Shown: piece after piece, positions 11,013 to 55,090 of the stretch
Layout of the letters: each line of letters opens with the position of its first letter
Numbering within the stretch: position 1 is the stretch's first letter
Source: Chrysochromulina tobinii
Lineage: Eukaryota > Haptophyta > Prymnesiales > Chrysochromulinaceae
Assembly: GCA_001275005.1 (NCBI GenBank)
Contig: JWZX01002709.1
Location: 1 to 62,761 of the forward strand
Reading direction: 5' to 3'
DNA: 62,761 nt
The notes under the pieces: model-generated
The model's database searches: none
Seen by the model: the letters and a program-made list of their open reading frames with translations, nothing else
What the model was told of the DNA's origin: nothing
Position numbers and translations under genes: made by a program

Positions 11013-12151
11013 ATGAGCGGGCTCACGCGCCGTTGCGTCATCCCCGTGCCCGCCGGCGCGAAGCCTGGTCACACGCTGACGGTGCAGACGGATGCGGGAC
11101 TGTTCCAGCTGGCCGTGCCGGCCAAGATCGCGCGCTTGTTTGTCGCCGACCTGCCCGTGCCCGAAGGCTGCGCGCTGCCGCACCTCACGGTGGCGTGGGT
11201 GCGCGTGGGCGGAGCGGATGCACCGGATGCGCCGTGCGAGAAGCCTCCTCGCTCATTCCACGCAGACCACGCGCTTGACCGCGGCGAGGAGGAGGGCGCG
11301 GCCGACGACGGCAACGCCGAGGCCGCCGGCGCGGCGCCCTCCGCCGCGCCACTGCGCGTCACCGTGCACGGCATCCGCACCAACTCCCAAGCGGTCACCG
11401 AGTACTGCGTCAAGGTGTACCGCGAGCTGTCCCGCGGCGAGCAGCGGCCGTTGGGCGAGCACTGGCACCGCTACTCGGCGTTCTCGCAGCTGCACGATCG
11501 TCTCGGCGTCTTCCCAGGCGCCTTCCCCGTCGATAAGAAGCGCTGGGTGCACACGGACCAGGTGCGTCATGGCCGCGGATGGCCTCTCGGATGGCCTCTC
11601 GGATGGCTTCCCTGATGATGACCTCTCGGATGACCTCTCGGATGGCTTCCCTCATGACCTCCCTGATGCCCTCCCTGATTGCCTCCCTCATCAGGTGCAC
11701 GAGCATCGCGAGGCGCAACTCAATCAGTACATGGCGCGGCTGCTCGCTCGATACGAAGCTCTCGCCGCGAAGCAGCGGCTGTACGCGACCGCCGAGGCGC
11801 CCGGGACGGCGCCCCATGAGGCGGATGAGCTACCGGCTGCCCTTCGCGCCTTTTTGGGCGTCGAGGGTGACGAAGCCAAGGTGACGAAACTTGCCTGATG
11901 GCCTGCCTGATGGCCTCGCTGATGGCCTCCCTCATCAGGTGACGAAACTTGCCTGATGGTCTGCCTGATGGCCTGCCTGATTGCCTCACTGATTGCCTCC
12001 CTCATCAGGTGATGAGATGGTTCCTCTGATTGCATCTGATTGCCTCCCTCATCAGGTGATGAGATGGTTCCTCGGCGTCTCTTCGACGAGTTACGAAACC
12101 GGCGGCGGCAAACTCGGCGGTAACGGCGGCAGTCACGGCGAGGTGAAGTGA
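11013..12151 (+). CDS. PX-domain protein (N-terminal coding segment of a possible PX-TPR gene)
   Basis: Exons 11013-11561, 11695-11880 and 12056-12151 (the last ends in an in-frame TGA if read straight through). The first 100 residues include a Cys/Val-rich region (RCVIPVPAGAKPGHTLTVQT). Then comes a PX-like domain: LRVTVHGIRTNSQAVTEY, WHRYSAFSQLHDRL, FPGAFPVDKKRW, the helix HREAQLNQYMARLLARY and a terminal LRAFLGV. PX domains bind phosphoinositides and bring proteins to endosomal membranes. Alternatively exon 3 stops at 12142 and splices in phase to 12226, which would fuse this segment to the TPR segment downstream. The two introns repeat exon-edge sequence (GTGATGAGATGGTTCCTC occurs twice). 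Confidence 0.78.
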
Positions 12152-12225
12152 AGTGTGGAAGCTCATCTCATCTGATTGCCTCTGATTGCCTCACTGGTCG
12201 CCTCACTGATTGCCTCCCTCATCAG

Positions 12226-13503
12226 GTGAAGTGTGGAAGCTCATCTCATCGCAATGACGCACGAAGTGGGCTGGACTTGCCTAATAAGGTCACGTTCGAG
12301 CGTGGGCCGGACTTGCCTAATAAGGACCCTTCCGAGATCGATACGAGATCGTGGCAAGATCGCCTCTGCTGCTGCCTCCAGCCTACCCAACTGCAAGTCG
12401 CCATGGTTGCTGTGAACATGGGTGCTGTGAACATGGGTGCTGCACCTTCCGACGGCACCGCTGTCACCATCGCACCCGCAGCTACAGGCCGGAGTGCTAC
12501 AGCCAGCGGCCACGCAGGGGCTAAGGGCGGCGCGACCGCTGGTGCTGGGGCTAAGGGCGGCGCAATCGCTGGTGCTGGGGCTAAGGGCGGCGGCACCGCG
12601 GGCGCGGCCAAAGGCGAAGAGCGCGGCAGCGAAGGGCGCGGTGCCCGAGGCGGCGCGGCGCCCGTGACGGCGCCCGAAGGCCACGCGACGGCGCTCGATG
12701 CGGCGAAGCGTTGTAATGAGCGCTTCGATTGGGCGGGCGCGCGCGCCGCTCTCGCGCCATGGACGCACCAGCACGACGCTCGCACCCTCATCGAGCGCAC
12801 CATTTGCAACCTGCAGGTGACGAAACCTTCCTGATGGCCTGCCTGATTGGCCCGCCTGATTGCCTCGCTGATTGCCTCACTCATCGAGCGCACCATTTGC
12901 AACCTGCAGCTCGCCGAGGACGCTGTGGAGGAGCAGCCGCCGGATGGGCGGCGCGCCAAGGAGCGAGCGGCCGAGGCGCTCGAGACGGCGCGGCGCGCGC
13001 TCGAGACGGCGCCCGACGACGCGGCGGCCCATATTTGGTACGGGCAGGCTGTCGGCACGCATGCAAAGGTCTTCGACCCGGGGCTGGGGCAGGGGCGCGT
13101 GTGCAACGTCCTCGTGCAGCACTGGGACCGCGCCGTCGAGCTCGCCCCGCAGGACCCGTTGCCGTACCACCTGCTCGGCTCGTTTGCTTTCCACACGTCG
13201 GCGCTGCCGTGGGCGACCCAGAGCATCGTGCGCACCCTCTCCCCCGGGCTGCGCAAGTTCACAGCGGACGACGCGATGGAGCTGCTTCGTCACTCGGAGG
13301 CGCGCATGCCCTCGCCGCCGAGCCACTACGCCGTCACCAACCGCTCGATGCTGGGCCGGCTCCACCTGCGCAAGGGCCAAAAGGGCGAGGCGCGCGTGTG
13401 GCTCGACAAGGCGCTCGACACGGCGCTCGAGCTCGACAAGGCGCTCGATCGGTCCGCGCAGAAGGCGGCAGACGAGGCCCGCAAGGCGCGCGCGAAGCTG
13501 TGA
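12226..13503 (+). CDS. TPR protein, RMDN-like (regulator of microtubule dynamics family)
   Basis: Exons 12226-12816 and 12910-13503. A free-standing gene would start at ATG 12403 (MVAVNMGAVNMG); the upstream part 12226-12402 is open and in phase with the PX exon. After an Ala/Gly-rich repeat region (GAKGG units) come TPR-like helices: ALDAAKRCNERFDWAGARAA, AAHIWYGQAVGTHAKVFD, DPLPYHLLGSFAFHTSALPW and SMLGRLHLRKGQKGEARVWL. This matches the RMDN/FAM82 arrangement, proteins that bind microtubules or organelle contact sites. The intron repeats the last 30 bases of exon 1 (ending CATTTGCAACCTGCAG) at its own 3' end. The C-terminus is Ala/Lys-rich. Confidence 0.72.
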
Positions 13504-16829: not shown

Positions 16830-18598
16830 TCAATCGAAAGAACCCACCTCACGCTTGGAGCGCCCGCCTCCCCAGTACTTGCCCGACGAAAGGTCGCCCG
16901 CCTCGACCGCGGCCCACTGCTTTGCATGGTCCTTGATGCTGAGGCCGCGCTCGCGCGCCGCCGCGCTCGACGCCAGCTTGCGCTCCTTCTCGCGCTCGAG
17001 CTGCTCACGCTCGCGCCCCCTCTGTGTGGCACGCTGCCGCTCGTGCTCCGCCTTGAGCTTCGAGTGCAGCACCTGCGGTGACAGTCCGCGCAATCCGCTC
17101 TCTCAGAATGCTCAACAGGAGGGCCCAGGGCTGGCGACTCGGGGCTGGCGAGTCTTTGAGTCCATGGCGAGTCTTTGAGCGCGGCACGTGCCTTCTGGCG
17201 CTGCTCAGCAATCTCGGCGGCAATCAAGAGGCAATGAACGACACTCACCTGCTGGCGCTGCTCAGCAATCTCGGCGGATGAGAGATTGAGCCGGCCGCCG
17301 CCGTCGGGCAGCTTGTCGTACGATGACGCCTCCGCCTCGCGCGGCGGGCGGATCGCATGCTCGATCGCCTCCTCGAGCTCGACTAGTGACACCATCAGCT
17401 GCGGCTTGAGGATGAGCTCTACGTCCTGCGCCGTGCGCCCGTTGCGCGCGACACACTTGACACGCTCCGTCAAGGTGACGTCGGCTCCGCTGCCGCCGCT
17501 CTCAGACTCCGACGACGCTGTCGCAGCGGCCACACGCTGCACCCGCATCTCGAAGGCGGGCACATGCGACGCAACCTGGTGCAGCCGGCCCGGCACGCAT
17601 GTCTTGACCAGGTGACCCTTGCACAGGCGGCGCAGCACGATCTGCAAGCCTTCACAGTGCGTGCTGTGGTTGAGCACAATGCGCCCGTCTCCAACTTGGC
17701 TCGCCTCTTCTGCGCCGTCTTGGGCGCCGTCTCGTGCCGGCTTCACATTCACATTCACATTCACATTCACGCTGCGAGAGGCTGACATGGCGGCGTCGGC
17801 GCTTACGCTTACGCGTGCACGCTGCTCCGCACGTGCGGCGTCGGCAATGCGTGCCTCCGCCTGCTGCGCCGCCTTGACGCGTTTCAGCCGTTCGCGCGCG
17901 GCGTCCGCTGCCAAGCGCAGCGGTATCGTATCTTGCGGATCGAGCGTATGCAGCAGCGGCATGGCCGCAAGCAGCGCCTGCCTGATCTCCTCTACAGACT
18001 CCGCAAAGTCGAGCTGAATCATGAGTAGCACGGGCGCATTCTCTGCGGTGTCCGTCAAATCCTCCGCTGCCCCCGATGCGGGCGGCACCTCAGCTGGCAC
18101 TGTCGTCCTGAGCTCCTCGTACAGAGCCCGATCATGCATGGCCTCGAGAGCTTCGATGTTCGCCTCGGGGTCGGCGAGCAGCTCAAGAAGATACTCAAGG
18201 TCGTCGCGCAACCCGTCGGCGCAGCCTGCCGGGAGCACCTCGCCATCAATCTTGTGGATGATCGTCGCAAGGCGCTCTTCGTGGAACCGGCAACGCTCAA
18301 TCATAGGATCATTATCGCCCAGTAAGGTCGCGCGATCTTGGAAACTGACCACAGTGCTCCTGAGCCACTCTGGCGCGATTCGGTGGCTCTCTTTTGCTGC
18401 CACTACTGCCGTCTTGCGCTGCTCCGCACGGGCTGCTAGCTTCTCCGCCCTAGCACGTGCCTGCTCGGACTGCGAAAGCCGCGACTTCTCGCCGCCTCCC
18501 ATAGAGGAAATGAAGGAGTCGATGATGGAAGTTTCGTAACGAAATAACGAAACATCATGTGGTTTCGAATCGAAATCCGAAGGGAGCGCTACTTTCAT
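16830..18598 (-). CDS. DUF2103-like protein with long eukaryotic extensions
   Basis: The main exon runs from 18598 to about 17247. It splices in phase at QRQQ|GTGAGT to VLHSKLKAEHERQ at about 17083, and the gene ends at 16830. The N-terminal half is helical and charged. The centre has GRIVLNHSTHCEGLQIVLRR, CVPGRLHQVASHVPAFEMRV and VKCVARNGRTAQDVELIL, which fit the pattern of DUF2103, a predicted metal-binding family known to me from cyanobacteria and archaea. The C-terminus is a basic coiled coil ending in YWGGGRSKREVGSFD. VNVNVNVN comes from a CACATT hexamer repeat. The intron holds a second copy of GAGATTGCTGAGCAGCGCC taken from the exon end, so a 54-bp alternative intron would also be in phase. 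Confidence 0.65.
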
Positions 18599-20815: not shown

Positions 20816-23302
20816 TCACCACGTCACTCTCGATCTCGATCTCGATCTCAGCTCGTAATATTGGTAGTGCGAAAGCACAGCGAGGAGCAGGGCCAGCAGA
20901 GATAGCACAGTAAGGAAGCCCCTGAAGCCCCCCTGGCGGCCGTTCCTCATCGCATGCTGGGGGGCGGGGGCGGCCACGGTCGGGAGATCAAGATGAGATC
21001 GAGATCGCGATGAGGAGGAGCAATCAGTGGTCATCAGAGGTCACCAGAGGCAATCACACCTTGAGGGCGGTGGCGTCGACGATCGGCACCAGCTTGCGAC
21101 GGCGTGCATCGAAGGCCGTGCCAGCGCGCATCGAACGGCTCGCGAGCGCGTTGACGAATTCGGCTTGCTCATACTGCGAGTCGGGAAGGGCTCGTGCAAT
21201 CAGAGGTCATCAGAGGCAATTGACGAATTCGGCTTGCTCATACTGCGAGTCGGGAAGGGCTCGTGCAATCAGAGGTAATCAGAGGCAATTGACGAATTCG
21301 GCTTGCTCATACTGCGAGTCGGGAAGGGCTCGTGCAATCAGAGGTCATCAGAGGCAATCAAGAGTAGGACTAGTGCTATCAGAGGTCGTCATGGGCGATC
21401 AGAGCCAATCAGGGTCAGTGAGAGGCAATCAAAGGACTCTCATATGCAATCATGTGGCAACCAGAGGCAACCAGAGGCAATCGGATGTGCACTCAGATGC
21501 AATTGAGAGGGAATCATATGAAATCAGATGCAATCAAGAGGCCATCAGAGGCCATCAGAGGCCATCAGAGCAACTCACCTGCCAATCAGGCAGCGCCTCG
21601 TCCCCGCCGTCGAGCAGCAGCCCCGCGAGCACCTGTGGGAAGAGGAGAGGGCGCCATGGTGAGCACTTGCATGCAAGGCGAGGTCCAGAAGAGGTTCAGC
21701 AGCCCCGCGAGCACCGCGGCTTCCCCGGGGCGTAGCTTGCGCTCGTCGAGCAGGTCGAGGAGCCCGATGGTGGTCCCAGACTCCCTTAGTAGGTGGAGCG
21801 CGGGCGAGTAAGCGAGCCAACCGTTACCTGCCATCAAGGGTCATCAAGGGTCATCAAGGGTCATCAAGGGTCATCCAGGGTCATCAGTGGGTGATACCTT
21901 TGCTGTGCACCTCAGTGGCAATCAAGGGTCATCAGTGGCAATCATGGGTCCTCAGTGGGCATTACCTTTGTTGTGCACTTCAGCTGCTTCGCCGCCGAGG
22001 TCGTCCAGCACGTCGAGGGGAAGCTCGACCTCGGCGTCCGCCTCATTCCAAAACGAGACCGCCGCCTCCTCATCCGTGCACAGGCGCACCTGATGAGGGA
22101 CGAATCATAGGCAATCAGCGGTGATCAGTGCTCATCAGGCGCACCCGAAACACGCGGCAGAGGGCCATCAGCACCCATCGCCCTCTGTCTCCAATCATTC
22201 GCGAAATCAGAGCCCTCCAATCACGTGCGTTGATTGGGTCCTTGATTGGGCCCATCCCGTTAATTGCCTCCAATCACGCGCGCAATCGCCTACCCAAAGC
22301 GCAATCAAGCCGCAATCCAGCCGCAATCAAGCCGGCCTGGTTCCATTCCTTCCCAAGACGTACCACAAGCCGCAGAGCGAACTGCTGCGTCAGTCGGCGG
22401 AGGGCGTTGAGAGCTGCAGCTGCGGCTTGAGGTGTCGGCACGCCCGAATTGGGCGGCGTGGGCGCGCCGTCCGTCATGATGATCAGAAAGCTCACATGCG
22501 CCGAGTGGGTACTAGATCGCGCCGTCGCGAGCGCCTCGAAGCGGGGCCACATTGAGCGAAGGCGCTCGGCGAGGGGCGTGACGCCCTGCGGCGTGACGCG
22601 ACGCAGGAAGATGCGGAGCCGGTCGGCGTCGGCGTCGGTGGCCGTGCACAGAAAGTCCTCGCCCTCGACCGCCGTCTCGCCGCCGCCGCCGCGTGGCGGG
22701 TTGAGGAGATGGAACTCGCACGGCACGCCAGTCGCGATGCCCAGTCGGCATGCGTCGTGGGCGCTGGCACAGATCTCCTCCCAGCGGGTAGCGCTCACGA
22801 GGTGCTCGCCCTTGAGGACGTGGCCATCGACCGAGTTTGTCGAGCCCGAGTTGTCCAGAAGAAAGATCCGGGCGGCCACCTTGTCCGCCTCGGCCATTGC
22901 GATCCGAGCGAGCCCCGGAGGCACGCCCAGTTGGGCTAGGAGAGCGGCCGACGGGTCGCGCCGGCGCCGCTCGACGTGCGGATGCACGACGGCGGGAGCC
23001 TGTGGCTGGGCCGGAGGTGGCGAAAGGGCACGGCGACGCGGCGACGCAGCGGCGCTCGACTCACGCAGGCTCCAGTTGGGCACCTGGCTGCCTGGAGTGA
23101 ACGGGCTGCGGCATAGCGGGCACTTGGCCTCGCGCACACCGTTCACACGCGCCGTAGGGAGGGCGTCGATGCACGCCCCACAGAACGAGTGGCCGCACGC
23201 GGGCAGCAGCGATGCGTCAGTGTAGCGCTCCAAGCAGATCGGGCATGCCATCGGGTCGCTCATCCGTTCCAGTGTGTTGCTCAGATTCCGAGCGCAGACC
23301 AC
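20816..23302 (-). CDS. RING finger / von Willebrand A protein with C-terminal membrane anchor
   Basis: Exons 22364-23302, 21966-22089, 21715-21827, 21579-21632, 21060-21173 and 20816-20956; phases all agree, giving about 494 aa. A RING finger ([27 protein letters not shown]) is followed by a VWA domain with a MIDAS-like DNSGS ([14 protein letters not shown]). Next come a copine-like C-terminal part ([46 protein letters not shown]) and a last exon encoding one TM helix ([15 protein letters not shown]). It is probably an E3 ubiquitin ligase on a membrane. If the final intron is retained the protein ends V-stop after exon 5. Introns contain extra copies of exon edges, including two decoy copies of the exon 5 start. 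Confidence 0.85.
21181..21360 (-). repeat. two decoy copies of an exon start in the RING-VWA intron
   Basis: The segment TTGACGAATTCGGCTTGCTC (followed by ATACTGCGAG and GCTCGTGCAATC) occurs in the real exon at 21150-21200 and twice more near 21220 and 21290. Each copy is separated by GAGGTCATCA/GAGGCAATCA units. Each contains a potential acceptor identical to the real one. Confidence 0.9.
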
Positions 23303-25568: not shown

Positions 25569-28500
25569 CTACGGCCTGGCCCCACCATTACGACCACTCC
25601 GCGCTGCGGCGGAGGCGCGCCGACTCAGGGGACGGCTCGCGCGCACCGACGACTGACGATGAAGCGCCGCGGCGGGCGCGGGGCTGCCGTTGGCATGGGC
25701 GTGGGCGTCGTCTCGGGCACCCGTTGGATGCCTCGCGGGGCTCCCGCCGGCGGTGGCGCGCTCATCACGGCGCTCGAGGAGCCCATCACGGCGCTCTGCC
25801 TCGGCGCGTCGGTAGGAGGCGGCGATGAAGGTCAACGGCGGTGCACCCGTCACGGCGCCCACCTCACGCATCCGGATCTGCTCATCACGGCGCCCCTGCT
25901 GCTGTTGCATCTGAAAGGCGGCCGTGGTCCCAGGGGGCAGCTGGAGCACGCGGTCCACGTAATTGGAAGGGGGCGGCGAAGCAGCCCTTCCATTTTGGGC
26001 CGAGGCGTCGTACTGGGCTGGTGCGTCGTACTGGGCATTTGGTGACCGAGGAGAAGCGCCGCCAGCCGGTAGGAGCATTCGTGGGGTCACAGAGACTACA
26101 AACGTATGCGTCTGCGGCTGATGCGGATCGGGCGCGGACACGTACCTGTGGGGTTCGGGCGCCGTGGTGAGCACTTGCATGCAGGGCGGCGGCTGAGGCG
26201 GATCGGGCGCGGACACGTACGTGTGCATCTGGGGCGGCGGCAGGTAGCCACCGAGGGGTGCCGAGTACGTTTTGACGAGCGAGGGTGGATCTCGTGCCCC
26301 GACGCACCTGATGAGTGACGCAATCAGAGAGGCCATCAGAGAGGCCATCAGAGAGGCCATCAGATGCCATCACGAACACTCAGACGCACCCGAGGAGGCC
26401 GCTGATGATGCCGACACCGAAACCACCGCCGCCTCGCGTGGCGCTCTCAATCGCCGGTGGGTGAAGAAACGCCCACCCTACAGATTGCAGCTCTTTCTCG
26501 CGCTGAAAGAGCGCCGTCTTGGTCGCTGCGAGCTCTTCCGCCATCGCACTCAACCGCTCGCGTGACTCATCGAGGGCTTCTCGCACCTGATGAGGGACGC
26601 CATCAGTCGCAATCAGGCTCACTCAGGGCTTCTCGCACCTGATGAGGGACGCCATCAGTCGCAATCAGGCTCACTCAGGGCTTCTCGCACCTGATGAGGG
26701 ACGCCATCAGAGGCAATCAGAGCTCTTCCGCCATGGCATTCGCATTCAACTCAACCGCTCGCGCGCGCGCGCACCTGATGAGAGACGCCATCAGAATCAC
26801 CATCAGAGTGGCAGTCATAGGCAATCAGAGGCAATCAGAGACCATCAGAGAGGCAATCAGTGAGGCAATCAGAGACCATCAGAGAGGCAATCAGTGAGGC
26901 AATCAGAGACCATCAGAGAGGCAATCAGTGAGGCAATCAGAGACCATCAGAGAGGCAATCAGTGCGTACCCATCGGTTCTCCTCATCAGTGAGGCAATCA
27001 GAGACCATCAGAGAGGCAATCAGGGCATACCCATCGGTTCTCCTCGCCCACCTCGTGCGCCTCAGCGCGCGTCAGACGTAACTCCACCTGCGCGCATCCA
27101 AGCACGCATCCAATGCCCGGAAGTCCTCAGCCTTCTTCTTGAGCTCCCAGGCAATCAGAGGCAATCAGAGGCAATCAGAGGCAATTCGAGGCAATCAGAG
27201 GCAATCAGAGGCAATCAGAGGCAATCAGAGGCAATTCGAGGCAATCAGAGGCAATCAGAGGCAATCACCTGAATTGCCGCAAAGTCCTCAGTCTTCTTCC
27301 GAAGCTCCGCCGAGTCGAGCAGGTGCTGCAGCATCGCAGCCTCCTCCAACGGTCGCGCCGAGATGGCGGCGTCAATCATCTCGACGCCGCCGTGGGCGTG
27401 GTTCCAGTGCGTCGGGAGCGGCAGCAGGGGCGAGCGCGGCTGTGGAAGCAGCTCGGGGCTTCGCGCCATCGCGCGGCCTGTGAAGAGCGGACCATTTCGG
27501 TGTGAAGACGCCCCGAGCTGCTCGGGCGAGTGTGAATGCGCCCCGGCGTTGTGCGGTGTGAACGGCGAGTCCGGGGGCCGTGCGGGCGAGCTGCCGCCGG
27601 GCGAGCTGCCGCCGGGCGGCGCGGGTGTGAACAAGGAGCCTCCCGGTGTGAACAAGGAGCCTCCCGGTGTGAACAAGGAGCCTCCCGGTGTGAACAAGGA
27701 GCCGCCGGCTCGACGCCACGCCGTCCGGACCTGATGAGGGAGGTCATCAGAGTGGCCATCAGAGGTCATCAGAGGTCATCAGAGGTCATCAGAGGTCATC
27801 AGAGGTCATCAGAGGTCATCAGAGTGACCATTAGAGGTCATCAGAGGTCATCAGAGGTCATCAGAGGTCATCAGAGGCCAGTACCACCATCCCAGCGCGT
27901 CATCAGAGGCCATCAGAGGCCATCAGAGTGGCCATCAGAGGTCATCAGAGGCCATTACCACCATCCCAGCGCGTCGTAGCCTATGAAGCTCATGCAGCCG
28001 GGTGCCTGTGGCGTCGAGTAGCTCCATCTCAGCATGCTGCAAGTGAGACTGAGCCTCGAGACGAAACGCAAAGCCGTTGGAGCCGTTGGAGCTGCCCGCC
28101 GTCGCGCCCGAGACGGCACCTCCTCCGCCGCAGCCCGGGCTGTGGGAACTCGGTGCGCCCGTGACGGCGCCCCCCTGATGGCCTCCCTGAGTGCCTCTGA
28201 GTGCGCCCGAGACGGCGCCCCCAAGCTCGATGAGAGGCGAGTGGCTGTAGCTGTGGCCACGGTACATGGGTAGGGGATCAGAGCCAATCAGAGCCAATCA
28301 GAGCCAATCAGAGCCAATCAGAGCCAATCAGAGCCAATCAGTGGCAATCAGAGAGTGGCTGTACCTGTGGCCACGGTACATGGGTAGGGGATCCGTGCTC
28401 GTGTCTTTGCCGCGCTGCTGCTGCTGCTGCTGCTGCTGCGGCTGCGGCTGCTGCGGCTGCGAGCTGTCGTGCGCGGGTTTCCATAGGCAGACGAGGAAGA

Positions 28501-34239: not shown

Positions 34240-36810
34240 TCATGCCCGGCGCCGCTGCGCCATCCAAACGACCGCCACGGCGACCGCCACCGCGCCAAAA
34301 GCGAGCACCCGTCGACGCCCTTCCGCCCCTCGCTGCTCGGCCGCCGCTTTGGCGACGAGCTGCTCGACGTCATCGTCCTGCGGCGCGACAGGCCGCTTTC
34401 ATCAGAAGATGTGCAGCGCGCGACAGGCCGGCTTCGTCAGAATATTCAGGTTTCGTCAGCAGATGCAGCGCAGCAGTGGCGATCCAGTGGCAATCCAGTG
34501 GCAATCAAGTGGCACTGACCTGCGGCTCGACACGCCGCTGCACCTCGCGCACAAAGTCGTACGCGGCGCCCGGCTTCATGATCGGCAACGTGCCGTGACG
34601 AAACACGTCGAGCTTGATCTCGAGCTCGCGTCGGAGATTGTACCACCAGCTCTCGGCGCGCAGCTGCTGCGTGCGCCCGAGGGCGTGCGAGCTGCGCAGC
34701 ACCGGCGTGACCCTTGGGATGCGCATCTGCAATGAGGGGGGCAATCAGCATGCAATGAGGGAGGCAATCAGCATGCGAGCCACGTGACCCTCGGGATGCG
34801 CATCTGCTGGTACATGGCCGCCGTCAGAGGCAATCACGGAGCAATCATTGAGCAATCATTGAGCAATCAAGAAGCCATCGCGGAGCCATCACCTGCTGGT
34901 ACATGGCCGCCGTCGCCTGCATATTCGCATCGGACGGGTCAAACGGCTTGGTGCCCGCCGCGCAGCAGTAGTGCCGTAGGAGGCGAGAGAGCACGCCAGC
35001 ATCCTCCATGGCCATCATGGCGCCCTGCCCGATGTACGGCACCGGGGGGTGCGCTGCGACCGGAACCGGATCCAAATTAGGGACGCCATCCGGATCCAAA
35101 TTAGGGACGCAATCAGAGGGACGTCATCTGGGACGCGCTCAGAGAGGCCATCCGCGTGATGGAATCTGCGAGATGCAATCTGCGAGATGCTCTGCGAGAT
35201 GCAATCTCACCTGCGTCCCCGAGGAGGACGACGCGCCCACACAGGCTCACCCACGTGTCGAGGGGATCCCGCGAGAAGACGCCGAGCTTGATGACGGTCT
35301 CCGCCTGGCGCAGCGGCGCGAGGAAGGCTTCATGCCACCTGATGAGGGAGGCAATCAGAGGCGCACTCAGTGGCAATCAGAGGTCATCGGTGGCGAGAAG
35401 AAGGCGTGAAGAAGGCGATTAGGGAGGCAATCAGCATGCAATGAGGGAGGTAATCGAGGAATTTCGTGGCCATCAGAGTTTCACCCGTCTGCCTCGAGCT
35501 TGGCCGCGAGCGCGACGCACTCCGCTCGTCCTTCGTCCGCTGAGAGCGTGCCTGCATGCAATTAGGGAGCTCATCAGAGCTCATCCGATGCAATCAGAGG
35601 CAATCTCCGCTCGTCCTTCGTCCGCTGAGAGCGTGCCCCAAGCTTCGTCATGAGGGAGGCAATCAGCATGCAATGAGGGAGTTCGTCCGCTGAGAGCGTG
35701 CCCCAAGCTTCGTCATGAGGGAGGCAATCAGCATGCAATGAGGCAATCCGCATGCAATGAGGGAGTTCGTCCGCTGAGAGCGTGCCCCAAGCTTCGTCAT
35801 GAGGGAGGCAATCAGCATGCAATGAGGGAGTTCGTCCGCTGAGAGCGTGCCCCAAGCTTCGTCATGAGGGAGGCAATCAGCATGCAATGAGGCAATCAGC
35901 ATGCAATGAGGGAGTTCGTCCGCTGAGAGCGTGCCCCAAGCTTCGTCAGTCGTCGTGGCGGGAAAGTACAGTTGAAAGATCTGCTCCGCCTCGCCTGATG
36001 GGGGAGGCCATCCGAGGCGCACTCAGAAGCGCAAGCAATCCGTGGCGCACTCAGAAGCGCAATCCGTGGCCATCAATCGCAATCCGTGGCCATTAGTCGC
36101 AATCCGTTCAGGGTTTGACAGATCGGCTCCGCCGCCTCACCGGTGGGATAGAAGCAGCCGTGGCATTTGGTGGTGCGGGAGGAGGGGAAGCAGATGCCGC
36201 GCATTGGGCGCGGGACCTTGGCCGCGCCCATCAGGCACGTGACGCCCGTAAACTCGGCGGCCAGCTTGCCCACAACCGCCTCTCTCACCCTCGACTTGAG
36301 CCCGTCGGCGCCAAAGACGACGCGCACCGTCCGGCTCGTGCCGTCCGCAAAGGTGACGTCGACGGTGCCGTCGGCGCGAGGCTGCACGTGCTCCGTGCGC
36401 ATCTTGAAGTGCACCTTGATGCCCGCCGCCGTCGTCGCGTCGAAGAGCACCTTCTGCAGCCGCCAGCGCCGGATACCGAGGCTTTGCAGCTCGGGGTCGT
36501 CGCTCAGCTCGCTCTCGCGCGCGCATGCCACCTGGGTGCCGTCGTGCCGGTACCATCGCCGGTAGATGTAGTCGTACCCGGACGCGCGCACGGCTGCCAG
36601 CAGCTCGGGCGAAATGTCACGCAGCACGCGCAGGCCGTTGGCGTACAGCCCGACGGCGCCGCCCGCGTTGTTGGTGAACGCGGTCGCCTGCTCGAACACT
36701 TCGATGTCCGCGCCCGAGAGGCCGCAATGCTTGCGCAGCGCGAGCGCGAGGCACAGCCCGCCGATGCCAGCGCCGACAATCAGCACTCGCGGTTGCGCGT
36801 TCGCGTCCAT
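34240..36810 (-). CDS. FAD-dependent monooxygenase (aromatic hydroxylase / epoxidase type)
   Basis: Exons 36141-36810, 35935-35994, 35485-35551, 35211-35338, 34893-35053, 34520-34726 and 34240-34377; all phases agree, 476 aa. The N-terminal Rossmann motif VLIVGAGIGGLCLALALRK binds FAD. VVFGADGLKSRVRE is the DG-type motif, and GRVVLLGDAAHPPVPYIGQG with MAMEDAGVLSRLL is the second FAD motif of group A flavin monooxygenases (salicylate hydroxylase, zeaxanthin epoxidase and relatives). A C-terminal TM helix (VLAFGAVAVAVAVVWMA) with a basic tail anchors it to a membrane. The second intron uses a GC donor and carries many copies of the next exon start. Substrate cannot be told from sequence; pigment or aromatic metabolism is a guess. 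Confidence 0.9.
35551..35940 (-). repeat. multicopy exon-start repeats inside a GC-AG intron
   Basis: The block GAGTTCGTCCGCTGAGAGCG (with TGCCCCAAGCTTCGTC after it) appears about five times, separated by ATGAGGGAGGCAATCAGCAT units. On the minus strand it encodes DEAWGTLSADE, the end of exon 2 and start of exon 3 of the FAD monooxygenase. Only the outer copies can be used to keep the frame. Confidence 0.9.
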
Positions 36811-37004: not shown

Positions 37005-40000
37005 TCAGTCCGAGTCCAAGTCGATGACATCCTCCGGCTTGGGCTTCGGCTTCGCCTTCTTCCGGGGCGCAGCCGCTGGCGCCATGACGGGCGCGGCACC
37101 GGCGGCTGACGCGGCGGCTGGCGCGGCGGCTGGCGCAGCTGCGGGTGGGGGCCTGGGCGCCGTGTCGGGCGCGGGGCGCTTGCGAGCAGCGCTCGCGGAC
37201 GCCGACGCGCCGCCCGCGCCCACGACGGCGCCCGGTCCCTCGGGCGCCAGCCCGAACGAGCCCGCGCCCACGACGGCGCCCGGTCCCTCAGGCGCCAGCC
37301 CGAGCGAGAGCCTTCGTTTGGGAAGGTCCACAGCGAGCACCTGATGAAGGAGGCAATCAGAGGTCATCAGAAGTAATCAGAGGTCATCAGAGGTCATCAG
37401 AGGTCCACAGCGAGCACCAGGAGGGATAGGGGCATGCCCACGCAGGCATGCTCGAGGGGATCAGACACGCGTCCACCGCCCGCTGTGCGCATCTGCGAGA
37501 GAGAGAGAGAGGAGCACACGGTCGTGAGAGGCCCTCAGAGCGTAATCAGAGCGTAATCAGATCGAAATCAAAGCGTAATCAAAGCGCAATCAGAGCGTAA
37601 TCAGTCACCTGCGAGACATGCAGTAGCCCATCGTCTTTGAGCCCCACGTTGACGAAACAGCCAAAGGGCGTGATATTCCGCACGACTCCCTCAAGCCTCT
37701 GCCCGAGGACCAAATCGGCCAAAGTTTGCAACGAGGAGCCCAGCAACAACGGTCCGGGCAGCTCCTCACGAGCGTCGCGTTGGGCAGCCGTCAGCGCCTC
37801 GAGGAGCTGCATGAGGGCGAGCTCGCCCACGCCGCAGGCAGCCGCCAGCGCAGTGCGACCACTTGGTGTGGCCGCGCGCCGCAGCCCTAATTGCCCTAAT
37901 TGCACTAATTGCACTAATTGCCCGGATTGCCCTGATTGCCCACTGGGGGTTACATCTCGTCCGACGAGATCGTGCCCTAATTGGGCAAGCAGCCGACGGC
38001 ACGCTTCGTATGATTCGGGATGGACGGCGGTCGCATCGAGTGGCTCTGCCGCGTCGAGGCCCAGCCGAAGGAACCCGGCCGCCTGTTCAAATGATTGGGG
38101 TCGCAATCAGAGGCAAGCAGGGGCACTCAAAAGCACTCAGGAACGGTCAAACGATTTGCACTTGAACGGCCGCCTAATGGCAATCGGGAGGTGATCGAGA
38201 GGTAATCACCTGCTCGTGTGTCCAAATGATTGGGGTCGCAATCAGGAGGTCATCAGTGGCAATCGAGAGGTGATCGAGAGGTAATCACCTGCTCGTGTGT
38301 CCAAATGATTGGGGTCGCAATCAGAGGCAAGCAAAGGCCATTAGGTCGTGAGGCTCATTTAGGGCAGCCACCTGTTCAAAGGTCTTGGGGCCGATTCCCT
38401 TGATGGACCGCAGGGAGGCGCGTGAAGTGAAACCGCCGGCAGGCCGCGCCGCGACGATGGCGGCCGCTCGGGAGGCGTTGAGGCCGCCAATGTGCATGAG
38501 GAGGCTGGTTGAGGCTGTGTTGAGGTCCACACCTACGTGGCACACCGCCGACTGCACCACCTGCGCCGGGGGTAGTGGGGGGTCGGGGGACTGAGCGGGG
38601 CGAGTCGGGGGACTGGGGGGTGGTCGTGGGACTGGGGGGGGAGTCGGGGGACTGGCGAGGTGAGGGGGGTGGAAGTGGCGAGGTGAGGGGGGTGGAAGTG
38701 GCGAGGTGAGATGGGTGGGACTGGCGAGGTGGGGGAGGCCATCAATGCTCATCAGTCGCAATCAGCATGGAAGCTCTCCTGTGCCAACTCAGCGTCGAGC
38801 AGCTTGGGCGGCAGGTCATGTTGGTACAGCCCCACTCCGAGGGATTTGGGATCAACTCGGACGAGCTCCGCCATGGGGTCCTGTGAATGTGAACGCAGGC
38901 CATCAGTGGTCATCAGAGGTCATCAGAGGTCATCAGAGGTCATCAGAGGTCATCAGGGGTCATCAAAGGTCAACAGAGGACATGAGATCGCTCACCTGCA
39001 GCCGGCGAGCGAGCGAAGCTGCGCCGATCGCCGCTGGGTCGAGTGTCGGGTCTGCCACCTGCATGCAATGAGGGAGGCAATCAGCATGCAATGAGGGAGG
39101 CCGATCGCCGCTGGGTCGAGTGTCGGGTCTGCCACCTGCATGCAATGAGGGAGGCAATCAGCATGCAATGAGGGAGGCAATCAGCATGCAATGAGGCAAT
39201 CAGCATGCAATGAGGGAGGCAATCAGCATGCAATGAGGGATGCAATCAGCATCCCACCTGGGCCGCCGCAGTCACGGACAGGACCGATGCCCCAGCCTCA
39301 TGCACCACGCTCAAGCGCACGTGCGAAAGAGAAGGGTCCGCACGTACCTGATGAGGGAGGCAATCAGACGTATTCGGAGGTCATCAGAGGCCATCAGAGC
39401 TCATCAGAGAAGGGTCCGCACGTACTGCCGCCGCCACCACCTCAACAGTCTCGTGGTTCGCAGTGAGGGAGGCAATCAGCATGCAATGAGGGAGGCAATC
39501 AGCACCTACTGCCGCCGCCACCACCTCAACAGTCTCGTGGCTCGCAGTGAGGGAGGCAATCCGCATGCAATGAGGGAGGCAATCAGCACGTACTGCCGCT
39601 GCCACCACCTCAACCGTCTCGTGGCTCGCAGTGCCATCGCCAACGGCCACCACGCTCACTCGATGCTCCTTGATCCATTCTCGTAGCGTACGCTCGGCGC
39701 TGGCTCGCTCGCCGTGCGGCGGGTGGGCCATGATCACGCCGTGGGCGCGTACCTGCATGCAATGAGGGAGCTCATCAGAGCTCATCAGAGGCCATCATTG
39801 CTCATCAGAGGCAATCAGAGCTCATCAGAGGCAATCAGAGCTCATCAGAGGCAATCAGAGCTCATCAGAGCTCATCAGAGGTCATCAGAGCTCATCAGGG
39901 GCCATCAGAGGCGCACACCCGTCCCTCGGCGTCGATGACCGCCAGCTTGCAGCCGGAGCGGTAGCCCGGGTCGACGCCCAAGATGACGCATCCACGCACG

Positions 40001-41824
40001 GGCCGTTGGAGGAGCAGTGCACGCAGATTCGATGAGAAGACCTTCGCAGCTTGCATCTCAGCTTCGTCAGTCATCCGCCGCCGAAGCTCGCGCACCTGAT
40101 GACGGAGGCCATCAGTGGCCATCAGTGGCCATCAGTGGTCATCAGTGGCAATCAGGCTCAATCAGGGCTCTCGCACCTGATGAGGGACGCCATCATTCGC
40201 CATCAGGCGCAATCAGGCTCAATCAGGACTCTCGCACCATGGCCGGCTGCAGCAGCCGAGTGAACGCGTCCGCGACCGCCGCCTCGAGGAGTGAGGCGCG
40301 CTCACCACGGCGCTCCTCCGTACGTGGGAGGGCGGCGGCCTCGAGGCAGCGAAGGGCTCGATTGCGATCTGGCACGCTCACCTGATGACGGAGGCCATCA
40401 GCGTCACTGAGCTTCGTCACTCCGAAGGCTGTGACGTGGCTTAGGCGGAGCGGACGGACCGGATGGCAATCAGAGCTCATCAGGCGGATGGCAATCAGAG
40501 CTCATCAGGCGGATGGCAATCAGAGCTCATCAGACGGATGGCAATCAGAGCTCATCAGACGGATGGCAATCAGAGCTCATCAGGGGGATGGCAATCAGGC
40601 ACTTTTATGATGAGGATGGCCATCAGGCACTCCCATTCGTACTCAGGCGCACACCCACCGTGACTCGGATGGCCTTCCGCGCCTCGTACCTGATGAGGGA
40701 GGCAATTAGACGTAATCGGAGGTCATCAGAGGCTATCAGAGCTCATCGGATGGCCTTCCGCGCCTCGTACCGATTGATGGCGAGCACGCGGTGAGCGGGC
40801 AAGCTGCTCGCGCGCACGCTCAGACCGATCAATGACGAAACCGCGTCGTCACGGGCGCTCGACGCGTTGTCGCGGGCGGTCCCGGAGGAGGGGCGTGAAG
40901 TCGTGGCGCCCGACACGGCGCCCGTCTTGCCGCCGCCGCTCGCACCGCCGCCGCCGCCACCGCCGCCGCCGCCGCCCTCAGCGGTTGCATGCTTGCTCGG
41001 CGCCCGACACGGCGCCGAAGCGGCCACGCTCAAAAGTCGCGTGGCGCCAAAAGTACTCTCGCAGCGACGCGCGGGCGGCGGGGTTCTCGCTCACCTGAGG
41101 AGGGATGCGGATCCCGTAGTACTTAGTGGCATGCACTCAGTCGCATGCACTCAGTCGCATGCACTCGGTGGCATGCACTCGGTGGCATGCACTCGGTGGC
41201 AATCAGCGTGCATCAGCATCAACAAGAGCCAATCAGCACCAATGCGCCAATCAGCGGCCATCAGAAGCAATCAGCGGCACCCAGAGGCAATCAGCGCCAA
41301 TCAGCGGCCACCAGCGCCCAGCAGTCGCTCACACGCTCGGCAAGCAAATGGATCACGCCGCCGCAAGTGCCCTGCTGGACGCGATCGCCGGCGTCGAAGG
41401 CGCTCCGAATCTCGGCGTCCGAGATCGACGAGTGCAACCAGATGCGCTCAGCGAGCGGCGCGAGGCCGCGTGCTCGCGCGGCTTCCGCCAGGGTGCCTCG
41501 CGACTGCTTGAACGGTGCGTGCAGGTCGTCTAGCGTGCACAGGTCCGACGCATCGCGCACAGCCTGCAGCGCTGCTGGCGGAGCGTCCGCCTTCTCCAAC
41601 GCACGCAGCACCGTCTGCCGCCGGTCCTCCAAGGCGGCGTGCTCACGAAGCGCGGCGCGCACGGCGTTCACCTGCCGCTCGTCCATGCCACCCGTCAAGT
41701 CAGAGCGATACCGCACGATGAATGGAACCGTCGCGTCCTCGGCCAGAAGCTGCCGCGTCGCCTCGAGCTGCTGTGGGCGTATGCCGAGCGAGGCGGCACA
41801 GCGCGCGAGCCATGCCTCTCGCAT
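37005..41824 (-). CDS. tex: Tex-like S1 RNA-binding protein, many introns
   Basis: Exons I could fix: 41333-41824, from 41094 (end near 40995), to 40771, 40659-40689, 40238-40381, 39919-40095, 39594-39752, 39258-39347, 38996-39058, 38767-38880, 38372-38560, 37609-38082, 37418-37492 and 37005-37340. Tex landmarks occur in order: ATVPFIVRYRSDLTGGMDER, LPAHRVLAINRYEA, CVILGVDPGYRSGCKLAVID (YqgF-like), VSVVAVGDGTASHETVE, VVHEAGASV, LGVGLYQHDLPPK, CHVGVDLNTAS (helix-hairpin-helix), and the S1 domain LEGVVRNITPFGCFVNVGL. Tex proteins bind RNA and act in transcription or stress responses. The C-terminus has a duplicated APEGPGAVVGAG block and a Lys/Pro tail (KKAKPKPKPEDVIDLDSD) that may be a nuclear signal. 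The intron after 38767 appears to use a GC donor. The exon 2/3 junction near 40900-41000 is unresolved. Confidence 0.92.
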
Positions 41825-42295: not shown

Positions 42296-42299
42296 AGTG

Positions 42300-48419: not shown

Positions 48420-51400
48420 CTAATTTGGTACGCGCTCGTACACGCACAGCTCGGCGAGCGGATGGACCGCCCTTACCGGTATCCGGAGCACACAGCGCCA
48501 GCCGCGCGCGCCGTCCAGAGCGTTGGCACTCGGGTCGGTGGAGCAGTCGGGCGCCGTGTCGGGCGCAACGTCGGACGGCGCCGTACCGGGCGCGAGGTCG
48601 GGCGCCGTATCGAGCGCGGGGTCGGGCGCCGTGCCGGGCGCGCTCACGGGCTCGCCGACGATGCAGCAGAGCGGCGCCTGCGGGTGCCGCGGCGATGGTG
48701 ACGGGCTGATGGGAGCGGTAATCAAGTGGTTCGGGGCTGATGGGAGCGGTACTCAAGTAGTTCGGGGCTGATGAGAGCGGTAATCAAGTGGTCGGGGTGG
48801 AAAGATCGTAGTAAATCGGGCCTCAGGGAGGCTCATGGGGTGGGTAATGAGGGGGGGCTCAGGGGGGGGCTCACCTGCGGGTATGCGCCCAGGTACGCGC
48901 GCCAGGGCGCATTCCGCCCCCAAAAGAAGCAGATCGCACTCTGTGAGGGCTGTGGGATGTTGAAGAGGGCGTCTGGCCGCACGCGCGTCACCTGTGGAAT
49001 GTGGAAGAGGGCTGTGGGATGTGGAAGAGGGCTGTGGAAGAGGGCTGTGGAATGTGGAAGAGGGCTGTGGAATGTGGAATGTGGAAGAGGGCTGTGGAAG
49101 AGGGCTGTGGAATGTGGAAGAGGGCTGTGGATTGTGGAATGTGGAAGAGGGCTGTGGAATGTGGAAGAGGGCTGTGGATTGTGGAATGTGGAAGAGGGCT
49201 GTGGAATGGGGCTGTGGAATAGGGCGTCTGGGCGCACGCGCGGCGTCGTGGTGAGCACTTGCATGCGCGTCACCGAGGAGCAGAAGCGAGGCAGCGAGGC
49301 GTACACCTCCGGGTCGGAGATCACGTCGAGATCGATTGCATGCACGCGCAGCCCGCGCGCCTGCAGCATGGCCTCGAGCGCGCCGTCGCCGCACCTGCCC
49401 ACGGGGGAGAAGCGCCGTGGTGAGCACTTGCATGCGCGCCTGCAGCATGGCCTCGAGCGCGCCGTCGCCGCACCTGCCCACGGGGGAGAAGCGCCGTGGT
49501 GAGCACTTGCTTGCGCGCCTGCAGCATGGCCTCGAGCGCGCCGTCGCCGCATCCTATGCGGACGACCGCGCGGTGACGTGCGGTTGGGCGCCGGGTGAGC
49601 ACTTGCATGCGCATCCTATGCGGACGACCTCGAGGTGGCGTGCGGAGGGGAGGGGGCGCCGTGGTGAGCACTTGCATGCGCACCCGATGCTGACGACCTC
49701 GAGGTGCCGTGCGAGCAAGACGTTAGCGAGCACGTCGGCTTGTGTGGGCGTTGGCCATGCGCACGTACCTAAAGGGGGTGGAGGGGGGGGGGCGCGCGCC
49801 GTGGTGGGCACTTGCATGCGCGCCGAGCCGGCGATGCGCACGTACCGCCTGAGGGCCACGTGGCGGCAGTTTCGTCAAGCGCTCGGTGGGGCTGCTGTGG
49901 GAAGATGCGGCCGTTGGACAGCGACGGTTGCGGCGGCGGTTGCGGCGGTTGCGGCGGCAGCGGAGGCGATGGCGGTTGCGGAGGCGGTGGCAGCGACGGC
50001 GATAGCGGCAGCGGAGGCGATGGCAACGCTGGTGGCGACGCAGGCCAGAGCTCAACACGGCGCTCTGACGTGTCCCGTATCTCGTGGTCCGAGATCGGCC
50101 ATGGCTCAAACGGACGTGCCCAGAACGGCGCGTCCACGGGCGGCATCGCGCGCTCGTCGAATGCATGCACGCTCGTGCTGCTGAACGCGTACCTAATGAG
50201 GGAGGCAATCAGGCAGGCCATCAGTGGCAATCAGAGGCCATCAGAGGGGCTCGCGCACCTGATGAGGGAGGCAATCAGACGTCATCAGAGGGGCTCGCGT
50301 ACTCGTAATTGGACGGCTCATCAAGCCACGGATCGCAATCAGACGTCATCAGAGGGGCTCGCGCACCTGATGAGGGAGGCAATCAGACGTCATCAGAGGG
50401 GCTCGCGTACTCGTAATTGGATGGCTCATCAAGCCACGGATCGCACGGCCGCTCCCGCACGAACGATCCGCTCAACACGGCGCGCGCCACGTGGCACCAC
50501 CCGGTCGCGCCGTATTGAGCGCGCTCGGTGTGGAAGGGCGGCGCGCTCACGAGCGCTTCGAACGAGTTTCCTGATGAGGGAGGTTATGAGGGAGGTTCAT
50601 CAGGGAGGTCATCAGGGAGCTCATCAGGGAGCTCATCAGGGAGGTCATCACGAGCGCTTCGAACGAGTTCCCTGCCACGACGACGCGTCGCAGGAGTACT
50701 CAGAAGGTACTCATCCTAGGCAATCAGAGGCAATCAGAGGCAGTCAGAGGCACTCCGAGGCATACCAATGACGACCACGCGCGACAGCTGATGAGCTCCC
50801 CAATTAGCGGCGAGGAGATTCGCGTACAGCTGGCGCGTGCAGTGCGGCAGGTAGCAGAGGCAGCGGCGACCCTCGACTCGCACGCGCCCCTCGTCATTGT
50901 GTGCGGGCACGCTCCCGCCACGGCGGCGCACGCAGCGCACTTCCGCCTCCACCATCACTGGATCGTAGACCATCAACGGAAGCGGCTCGTCAGATGCCGA
51001 TGCATGCGCGGAGCCGTTGGCGGAGCTGTCGAAGGCCGCCGATGCATGCGCGGAGCCGTTGGCGGAGCTGTCGAATGCATGCGCGGAGCCGTTGGCGGAG
51101 CTGTCGAAGGCCGCCCGCTGCCTGAGCTCGTCACGGAGCAGCAGCATGAGGGCAAATTGATAGCGCGCGGCGCGGCTACTCGCAAAGTGGCCGACGCCGA
51201 GGCAGAGCAACGAGTCGATCGCCGGCGCCCCGACGGAGACGGAGCGCACGTACGCGATCAGCTGCTGGGCGAATGCGGCTGCGCGCAATTCGGCGACGGC
51301 CGCGTCGAGGCGCTGGTCTAGGATCTCATCGTCGGCCGCCGATGAGTCGCCGCTTGGAGCCGCACGAGCGTTCCCTATTAGGTTTGCACGAGCGCCATTC

Positions 51401-53014: not shown

Positions 53015-53161
53015 TTTCACAATTGAGTTCACGAACGGTTCTGGCTCGTTCTCGCCGGCCCCTTCGAACACAACCCGGGCATGCAAGTCTACACGACTTT
53101 TCGAGGAAACTTGATGTAAGGGGCAGGTCCCAGCCCCTTGCTTGATGCGAGTCACCGAGAC

Positions 53162-55090
53162 ATGCGCTTCTTCGCACTTTCGGCGACGTTGGGCGCCTGT
53201 GCGCTGCTGCTCTTGAACAGCTACGGATCGGGGATCAGGATCCCTGACGGCCTCGGCAGCCCGGTCGCATGGCCAGCTGCCGTGGAGGCTCTCTCGGGGG
53301 CAGCACGCAGCAGCAGCAGCATCAGCACTGACGACATTGATCGCGGCCCTGCTCGACAACCCTCGACAGCCCTGCTCGATGCGCTGTCGCTCGAGCGATG
53401 CGACCAGCTCTTCGTAGACGGCGGCAGCAATTTGGGCGAGGCCGTCGACGCCTTCCTCGCTGGCACCTTTTTCACGTGCGCGACGACGGGCCCGGATCGG
53501 ATCTACCGCACCGACTGGCGGTCGCTGAGCAAGCCGCAGCGACAGGCGCGCATGGCGGCGCTCGCGTCTCCCCGAGGGTTCTGCATCCGGTCGTTTGAGC
53601 CCGCTCCCGCGCTGCTTCCGCCGCTCCGCTTGCGCGAAGCCACCCTACGAGCACTGGGCATCGACGTGCGATTCGTGCACGGCGCCCTGGTGGACGCGAC
53701 GACGACGGCCAGTGCCAGTGCCAGCGAGCGACGCGAGGTGGTGACTTACAGCGGCCATCCGCAAGGCGAATCGTTGACGAGCCTGTTCCGCTTCAACGAC
53801 ATCCACTTGGCCCCTGGTGGTCTCGTCAAGCCGCAGCAGCTCTCTGCGCGCATGGTCGACGTGCCCACGTAGGATGATGACACTGAGTGCCTCTCTCATC
53901 AAGCCGCAGCAGCTCTCTGATTGCCTCTCTCATCAAGCCGCAGCAGCTCTCTGCGCGATTGGTCGACGTGCCCACGTAGGATGATGACACTGAGTGCCTC
54001 TCTGATTGCCTCTCTGAGTGCCTCTCTGATTGCCTCTGTGCGCGAATGGTCGACGTGCCCACGTGCACTGATGTTCTCTGATGGCCTCTGATGGCCTCTG
54101 ATGACCTCTGATAACCTCTGATGGCCTCTGATGGCCTCTCTCATCAGGTACGATCTCGTCGAGGTCCTCGAGCGCATGCGCCGGCACAACGCGAGCGCCG
54201 TCGTGGCGGTGCGCTTGGACGTCGAGATGATGAACGCTGATGACCTCTGATGACCTCTGATGATGAGCGCTGATGATGAGCGATGATAAGCGCTGATGAG
54301 CTCTGATGACCTCATTCATCAGGTGCGCTTAGACGTCGAGGGAGCCGAATACGCGATGCTCGAGGCGTTGACGCGCCGTCCCGAGCTCCTCTGTTTCGTC
54401 AGCTTCGTCTTCGTCGAGTTCCACCACAGCGCCACGCCTGAGCAGCGCGCTCGGCTGACGCGCTATCGCCTCGACGAGCAGGTATGTGTGCCGCGGATGA
54501 CCTCTGATGACCACTGATGACCGCTGATGGCCTCTCTGATTGCCTCTGACCTCTCTAATTGCCTCTCTCATCAGGTCTTCGAGCGGCTCAAGGAGCGAGT
54601 GCATGCGGTGATGAAGCGACCGGGCTGCCGGTTACAGCTCTGATGGCGTGCTGATGGCATCTGATTGCCTCCCTCATCAGGTAATGGAGCGGCCGGGCTG
54701 CCCGCTACAGCTCTGATGGCGTGCTGATGGCATCTGATTGCCTCCCTCATCAGGTGATGGAGCGGCCGGGCTGCCCGCTACAGCTCTGATGGCGTGCTGA
54801 TGGCATCTGATTGCCTCCCTCATCAGGTGATGGAGCGGCCGGGCTGCCCGCTACAGCTCTGATGGCGTGCTGATGGCATCTGATTGCCTTCCCTCAGGTA
54901 ATGGAGCGGCCGGGCTGCCCGCTACAGCTCTGATGGCGTGCTGATGGCATCTGATTGCCTCCCTCATCAGGTGATGGAGCGGCCGGGCTGTCGGTTACAG
55001 CTCTACTGGCGCTCGTTTTGGGCATCGTGTGGCGACCAGCAGCGCTTCGAGTGGCGCGACTCCGAGCAGGCCACCCGACCAGCGCCGTGA
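53162..55090 (+). CDS. FkbM-type methyltransferase with signal anchor
   Basis: Exons 53162-53868, 54148-54208, 54323-54481, 54575-54607 and 54971-55090; all phases agree, 359 aa. A hydrophobic N-terminus (MRFFALSATLGACALLLLNS) suggests a signal anchor into the secretory pathway. The methyltransferase core has LFVDGGSNLGEAVDAFLAG (motif I), FCIRSFEPAPALLPPLR, and AVVAVRLDVEGAEYAMLEAL, the diagnostic K/R-x-D-x-E-G-x-E region of FkbM enzymes, then FVEFHHSA. FkbM-type enzymes O-methylate sugars or polyketides using S-adenosylmethionine. Each intron carries duplicated exon pieces; the last one is a six-copy tandem array. It starts head to head with the TLC gene. Confidence 0.87.
53869..54147 (+). 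repeat. intron with three copies of the exon 1 end
   Basis: The end of exon 1 (AAGCCGCAGCAGCTCTCTG, continuing to GTCGACGTGCCCACGTAGGA) is present in full once more and in part twice more inside the intron, separated by TGATTGCCTCTC units. Each full copy offers the same donor (CCCAC|GTAGGA). Confidence 0.9.
54608..54990 (+). repeat. 73-bp array of exon start plus intron, six copies
   Basis: The unit is the final exon start GTGATGGAGCGGCCGGGCTG, then CCGCTACAGCTCTGATGGCG, then a TGATTGCCTCCCTCATCAG intron end. Copies begin at about 54608, 54681, 54754, 54827, 54898 and 54971. Only the last continues into the terminal exon. The 54898 copy has lost CAT from its CCCTCATCAG, and copies 2 and 5 have GTAATG in place of GTGATG. 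Confidence 0.92.

Follow-up and report, generated by a model that had tools for sequence, protein, structure and literature searches.

How new spliceosomal introns arise is an old question, and many of those gained recently carry no readable scar of their birth. A DNA transposon mechanism has reportedly been proposed for the introners of Micromonas and Aureococcus. In the parts of the papers considered here, the introners surveyed by Gozashti et al. 2022 (PMC9860276) are cited with duplications of 3-9 bp, were searched for by requiring similarity near both splice boundaries, with microsatellite-like cases filtered, and are also known to include insertions that add codons; microhomology-mediated end joining has been proposed for fungal stwintrons (PMC8469720). 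Here we analyse one whole contig of the haptophyte Chrysochromulina tobinii, JWZX01002709.1 (62,761 nt, hereafter the window), together with a genome scan of 53.15 Mb, and describe introns in which a short insert carrying one splice site lies between two copies of an exon edge. They offer an unusually clear view of a possible intron birth, in which a short piece of DNA lands in a gene and a copied neighbouring stretch joins the new intron.

Inserts, duplicated exon edges and the Tex gene

An earlier note on this DNA had quoted seven exon-edge repeats and sorted them into two classes. All seven are present in the window and six are exact pairs; the pair at 54209/54323 exists but carries one mismatch (TTGGAC/TTAGAC), and the pair near the FAD gene is found at 34893-34911 and 34804-34822, its quoted position of 34850 being wrong. 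The observation of direct repeats flanking introns in register with the splice junctions is thus confirmed. The division into two classes also holds, the target supplying GT and the insert AG in class i, and the target supplying AG and the insert GT in class ii, where the inserts have the opposite polarity. Considered as architecture alone, an intron consisting of a short acceptor-bearing insert plus a duplicated stretch of exon is very probably the correct description.

Between the copies, most inserts consist of tandem repeats of a 10-bp unit that approximates TGATKRCYTC; this unit gave 342 hits over both strands of the window versus 6 for the reversed control. Family A comprises arrays ending TGATTGCCTCCCTCATCAG, an end with 879 exact copies genome-wide, 590 of which are followed by GT, and with no exact match in viral contigs. 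In class-i family A introns the right end is exact at the AG while the left end is variable, and some family A inserts have both ends inside the array. A strict set of 52 events was defined by a repeat of at least 14 b that is not array-like, 25 of 77 being dropped; repeats are mostly 14-45 bp without a common length. The 11 family A events have repeats of 14-25 b, with strict copies 0.90-1.00 identical (8 of the 11 at 1.00).

The earlier note had not set the 21632/21714 example apart; this one has an insert without an array and belongs to a second, unrelated family. Family B has the form TGCATGCAAGTGCTCACCAYGGCGCC..CCCCACAG, and its core, TGCATGCAAGTGCTCACCAYGGCGCC, occurs in 148 exact copies genome-wide. 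In a search with the insert 21633-21696, in which 40 of 152 candidates were scored, at least 45 matches were obtained including the insert itself, 40 of 45 ending exactly at the AG with varying starts. Family B is represented in the window by the following features.

21633..21714, minus strand: class-i intron, family B; core 21650-21675; copies 21697-21714 and 21615-21632
26146..26220, minus strand: class-i intron, family B; core 26158-26183; copies downward from 26220 (32 b, 1 mismatch) and from 26145
49255..49850, minus strand: five clustered cores resembling family B, of which four have duplications; one 37-b repeat stands three times side by side, one copy being slightly changed

When 22 family B loci selected by the core alone were read, a class-i duplication was present in 16 at a score of at least 8 (null 4/420) and in 13 at a score of at least 12 (null 0/420). 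The birth scar is therefore still visible at 16 of 22 core-selected loci of one family, and also in a second family unrelated to it; two unrelated insert families sharing one architecture indicate that the architecture is independent of any single element. In 15 family B events the matched part of the repeat is 8-44 b and the distance from donor to core 23-49 b. Both families carry a yUnAy-like motif (CTGAT, CTCAC) approximately 17-24 nt before the AG, which we take to be branch-point-like. No inverted ends were seen in family B by eye (TGCATGCAAG versus CCCCACAG). At locus L059 the 5' part of the intron contains 35 b identical to a place on contig C1708, in a piece of 241 b with two stop-free frames, for which coding is plausible only. 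Loci L059 and L067 (contigs C101 and C235) share the same intron and flanks, at 100% identity over a 69-b query, and may represent haplotypes or a duplication of recent date. To the left of the family B core at 21715, a variable stretch was considered as a donor exon copy and set aside, resembling by eye the longer left part of locus L053.

Splice junctions can be compared with homologues in a Tex-family gene, in which the following features were placed.

37005..41824, minus strand: Tex-family gene (S1 RNA-binding transcription accessory protein); 13 introns placed, whose removal opens an 856-aa frame, N-terminus assumed
40690..40770, minus strand: class-i intron, family A; insert 40690-40745; GTACGAGGCGCGGAAGGCCATCCGA at 40746-40770 (intron 5' end) and 40665-40689 (exon); junction ungapped against homologues
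39348..39425, minus strand: last module of a composite Tex intron; copies 39406-39425 and 39328-39347
37341..37417, minus strand: class-i intron; copies 37401-37417 and 37324-37340; GACCT at the repeat end is shared with the continuing 10-bp unit (microhomology)
38561..38778, minus strand: Tex intron whose donor looks like GA (GAGAGC..CGCAG); no gap at its junction when aligned with homologues

The best named relatives of the spliced protein are those of Prymnesium parvum (50% identity) and Chrysotila carterae (48%). Alignment with nine Tex relatives, comprising the two named haptophytes, bacteria and others, showed by eye no gap at 11 of the 13 junctions; uncertainty attaches to the second intron, which is GC-rich, and to a variable spot at the seventh. 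An edge repeat with a score of at least 8 is associated with 6 of the 13 introns compared with 1 of 156 cross-pairings, and the insert of the 39348..39425 module is 94.5% identical over 55 b to that at 40690-40745. Twelve of the 13 Tex introns lie in phase 0; this bias was not upheld elsewhere, a guess from codon composition placing 6 of 11 family A and 8 of 15 family B introns in phase 0, and no claim is built on it.

Splice register and intron length

Cross-pairing served as the null control, complemented by a shifted control (bases 41-100 after the AG) and by register shifts of 1 to 6 bases. At 53% of 106 non-redundant TCATCAG anchors the bases following the AG are repeated within 380 b upstream (score of at least 9), compared with 5.3% when cross-paired, and at a score of at least 20 the corresponding values are 32.1% observed, 8.5% shifted and 0% cross-paired. 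Flanking repeats scoring at least 20 accompany 61 of 172 arrays versus 4 of 419 cross-pairings. Scoring of direct repeats against these controls therefore yields an observed rate far above that of cross-pairings, and the earlier note's reading of the repeats as insertion with target duplication is supported by this excess and by the splice register.

GT..AG occurs in the same register of both copies in 30 of the 52 strict events, whereas shifting the register by 1 to 6 bases leaves 0-12; the 12 found at +1 include 10 cases of AGT, in which the AG overlaps the copied GT. A further nine events have only GC/GA..AG in register. The GT is located at the repeat start in 11 events, at the repeat end in 6 and inside the repeat in 13; several of the latter repeats include the element's own CATCAG, and in others both splice sites seem to come from the target. 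AG precedes the duplicated GT of class-i events in 3 of 11 family A and 4 of 15 family B cases, 7 of 26 combined, which indicates that the target need not contain AG|GT, the insert bringing the AG. The earlier proposal of an AG|GT-containing target is consequently not supported, GT alone being needed, and the earlier interpretation as a whole is partly supported. GC follows 11 of the 106 TCATCAG anchors and GA another 3, a hint of non-GT donors. Class-i repeats without a GT start that would leave in-frame exon duplications were seen at only a few of these anchors.

Length comparisons were performed with nine family A introns below 100 nt (two above 100 nt excluded) and 15 family B introns (one of 16, L071, excluded). 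Family A inserts are longer than those of family B (medians 58 for all 11 A and 42 for B, p=0.001), while intron lengths are alike (medians 78 for all 11 A and 77 for B, p=0.79). With family B repeats measured from donor to core, a stretch that is in part diverged or possibly insert, repeats are longer in B (medians 20 in A and 38 in B, p=1e-4), and shuffling repeat lengths on the same measure produced an equally small variance in intron length in 3 of 10,000 trials. When B is restricted to the nine loci with a match ending no more than 7 b from the core, the difference in repeat length from A has p=8e-4. The longer the matched part, the shorter the remainder of the intron (rho -0.71 pooled, -0.69 in B), a relation that is partly built in, the remainder being the intron minus the match. 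The shortest family B intron is 68 nt, and of 34 GT..AG events below 130 nt, 30 are at least 69 nt and two are 67-68 nt. The duplicated exon thus appears to contribute the 5' splice site as well as the length still needed. We infer a size filter, in which the duplication would provide length absent from the insert and selection would retain mainly those events with GT and AG in register and a total of at least about 68 nt. By this reading, ordinary exon sequence may be reused where it lies to form part of an intron.

Further introns and open frames in the window

Additional introns of both classes are located outside the Tex gene.

11881..12055, plus strand: composite class-i intron, three modules each ending CCTCATCAG
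12148..12225, plus strand: class-i intron; copies 12148-12172 and 12226-12250
12817..12909, plus strand: class-ii intron; insert 12817-12879; copy at 12880-12909 of the exon end 12787-12816; insert resembles the module starting at 11939
17192..17248, minus strand: class-ii intron, 57 nt; copies CGCCGAGATTGCTGAGCAGCGCCAG at 17252-17276 and 17195-17219
34804..34892, minus strand: class-ii intron downstream of a FAD_binding_3 open reading frame (ORF); GACGGCGGCCATGTACCAGCAG at 34893-34914 (exon) and 34804-34825; a further duplication adjoins
54209..54322, plus strand: class-i intron; copies 54209-54226 and 54323-54340, one mismatch

Removal of 12817-12909 gives one 335-aa frame, the unspliced frames being broken; the Pfam RMD1-3 match stops short of this junction, and homology is therefore neutral on it. 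Five tandem modules of ~73 bp, each an exon copy plus an array insert, lie within one presumed intron at 54606-54990 (plus strand), and similar reiterations are observed at 39023-39178, 35617-35948, 26573-26725 and 21151-21358. The minus strand at 42300-47969 contains an open stretch of 1889 codons with, by eye, TPR-like, ankyrin-like and PARP-like parts; a second ORF, 13827-16697, has a PARP domain by Pfam. Two genes at 57354-60036 (plus strand) adjoin and are paralogous by eye, the first without a Pfam match; array introns seem to lie close to one and the same codon in both.

Origin of the inserts and comparison with known systems

The splicing of these introns is predicted from sequence, and their mode of origin is proposed on the same basis. 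In the mechanism we favour, an acceptor-bearing intron fragment of ~40-60 nt, with its branch-point-like motif, pyrimidines and AG, would enter an exon, leaving a target duplication of mostly 14-45 bp. While the exon is repaired or replicated, the new strand would jump via short microhomology onto an existing intron, copy part of it and return upstream of its exit point, such that the target stretch is made twice. In class i one exon copy would remain coding while the other became the 5' part of the intron, supplying GT and a length sufficient for splicing; in class ii, the mirror form, the insert would supply GT and the duplicated exon end AG. Templated copying is supported by repeat/array microhomology of at least 3 bases at 8 of 26 left and 8 of 21 right scorable junctions of the 52 events, compared with nulls of 2.2% and 2.6% and a conservative null of 7.6% (p=5e-4 and 9e-5). 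The first 21 b of the 12817 insert (19 letters fixed, 2 free) occur elsewhere in 53 Mb with at most one mismatch only at 11881 and 11939, 0.9 kb away; allowing two mismatches adds one more place, as does the reversed control. This insert was likely copied from the neighbouring intron 11881..12055. Widely varying repeat lengths are unlike the product of a transposase with a fixed stagger, and tandem reiteration of repeat-plus-insert modules, as at 54606-54990, fits local copying. The 55 b shared by two Tex inserts, the inserts with both ends inside the array and the 35 b common to L059 and C1708 point the same way. Taken together, the architecture combined with this copying mechanism has in our judgement a little less than an even chance of being right.

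Several observations weigh against it. The 30-bp repeats of the 12817 intron are identical, yet its insert visibly differs from the presumed source, and the similarity of arrays to near neighbours is barely raised (0.141 versus 0.113; 4 of 500 permutations). No clear repeat was found at 6 of the 22 family B loci, and the left end TGCATGCA is nearly fixed in most family B copies read, some having a longer left part, which is more like a discrete element than random copying. On strictly matched bases for all 15 B introns the A/B contrast in repeat length fails (median 29, range 8-44, versus 20; p=0.14), donor-to-core lengths show no correlation between repeat and insert within families (rho -0.18 in A, 0.04 in B), and the other two of the 34 short GT..AG events imply introns of only 57-58 nt. 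Thirteen of the 52 strict events have no GT/GC/GA..AG in register. A broad scan of exact 12-mer pairs was not clean in register (89 of 792, with 99 at +1), and only the subset with array inserts stands out, with 35 in register, 24 at +1 and 1-14 elsewhere. The latter scan, the richness of the contig in tandem repeats and the 25.5% reached at TCATCAG anchors by the shifted control each speak for chance, tandem-repeat noise or misassembly. We think that the 25.5% reflects tandem reiteration of whole repeat-plus-insert modules. With cross-paired controls near zero at high scores, 30 of 52 events in register versus 0-12 when shifted, and Tex junctions in agreement with homologues, an artefact of this type is extremely improbable.

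Because the scars are visible, a transposase, reverse transcription and templated repair lead to differing expectations for duplication length, ends and donors, which can be tested. The strongest rival to templated copying is a reverse-transcription route in which an excised or partial intron RNA would be copied at a nicked target, either by target-primed reverse transcription or by intron retrotransposition; the AG end would then be the RNA 3' end, the left ends 5' truncations, and the variable duplications the product of staggered nicks. A variable duplication with a fixed 3' end fits class i, as seen in the exact right and variable left ends of family A and in the 40 of 45 matches to the 21633-21696 insert that end at the AG. 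It does not fit class ii, with its opposite polarity, or the inserts without both intron ends, and the 35 b shared between the L059 intron and another contig would be unexpected in excised intron RNA unless the donor already held them; we consider this route possible but unlikely. Movement of non-autonomous DNA elements by a transposase, the duplication being a target site duplication as envisaged for Micromonas and Aureococcus, would account for the many copies of two families, the near-constant left and exact right ends of the family B loci read, and the 7-b inverted match between the family A end TCATCAG and the unit variant CTGATGA, its reverse complement. CTGATGA, however, recurs inside arrays as an inherent part of the unit and hence probably marks no specific terminus, several family A inserts end inside the array on both sides, and no inverted ends were seen by eye in family B. 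With duplications that moreover lack a common length (11 A events at 14-25 b, 15 B events at 8-44 b matched, versus the 3-9 bp cited in PMC9860276), this origin is rather improbable. End joining of staggered double-strand breaks that captures stray DNA without a template switch overlaps with templated copying, the main difference being the source of the insert. It would leave the same footprint, an exon edge repeated across the new intron (4-12 bp in the Daphnia cases of PMC4202315), and the mostly identical strict family A copies are as expected of recent events, but the inserts read belong mostly to two recurrent families rather than stray DNA and junction microhomology exceeds chance, making this explanation less probable again. 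Returning to templated copying, a further and more tentative proposal is that these are half-introns, mobile 3' halves of ~40-60 nt, too short on their own to act as introns, that would become introns only by using duplicated host exon as the other half. The spliceosomal minimum (~68 nt) would select duplication length, pairing shorter inserts with longer repeats and leaving introns alike in size, and spread would occur by microhomology-guided copying of introns in repair or replication, without transposase; this is possible, though doubtful.

The comparison with described systems is confined to the parts of the cited papers considered here. Among the listed open-access matches, in a search that left subscription papers and bioRxiv preprints outside its range, no description was found of duplications of this length that become part of an intron. 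Tandem genomic duplication of an AGGT-containing exon segment (PMC3443670) likewise makes part of the intron from duplicated exon, but there the duplicated segment is the intron and AGGT provides both sites, whereas here a foreign insert separates the copies and AG precedes GT in only 7 of 26 class-i events. The new introns of Daphnia pulex attributed to staggered double-strand breaks (PMC4202315) share the internal repeats and an exon-edge direct repeat across the intron; those repeats are 4-12 bp and the inserts mostly of unknown source, in contrast to the longer repeats and recurrent rather than arbitrary inserts described here. Amoebophrya introners (PMC7789003) are also repeated introns with direct repeats at their boundaries, differing in direct repeats of 3-5 nt, inverted repeats of 8-20 nt and non-canonical sites.

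Closest are the introners of PMC9860276, in which similar introns occur at many unrelated sites and one splice site comes from the element and the other from the duplicated target, in both polarities. Near-identical intron sequence likewise occurs here at many unrelated sites (879 family A ends, 148 family B cores), but the similarity is exact at the AG while the class-i 5' part is a local copy of host exon, mostly 14-45 bp, no short duplication of characteristic length is present, and family A is a tandem array. The likeness to Micromonas and Aureococcus introners drawn by the earlier note is consequently loose, holding for the duplicated target and the shared supply of splice sites and not for duplication length (mostly 14-45 bp versus 3-9 bp); here, moreover, duplicated exon accounts for much of the intron. 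The introners of Chrysochromulina sp. (PMC9860276, Fig. 2C legend) are from a haptophyte and also take one splice site from the target, with a 4-bp duplication and an element carrying the 5' site, whereas in the main class described here the duplications are long and the 3' site is the one that the element brings. By this comparison, the introns of the window represent a new variant of introner-type intron gain.

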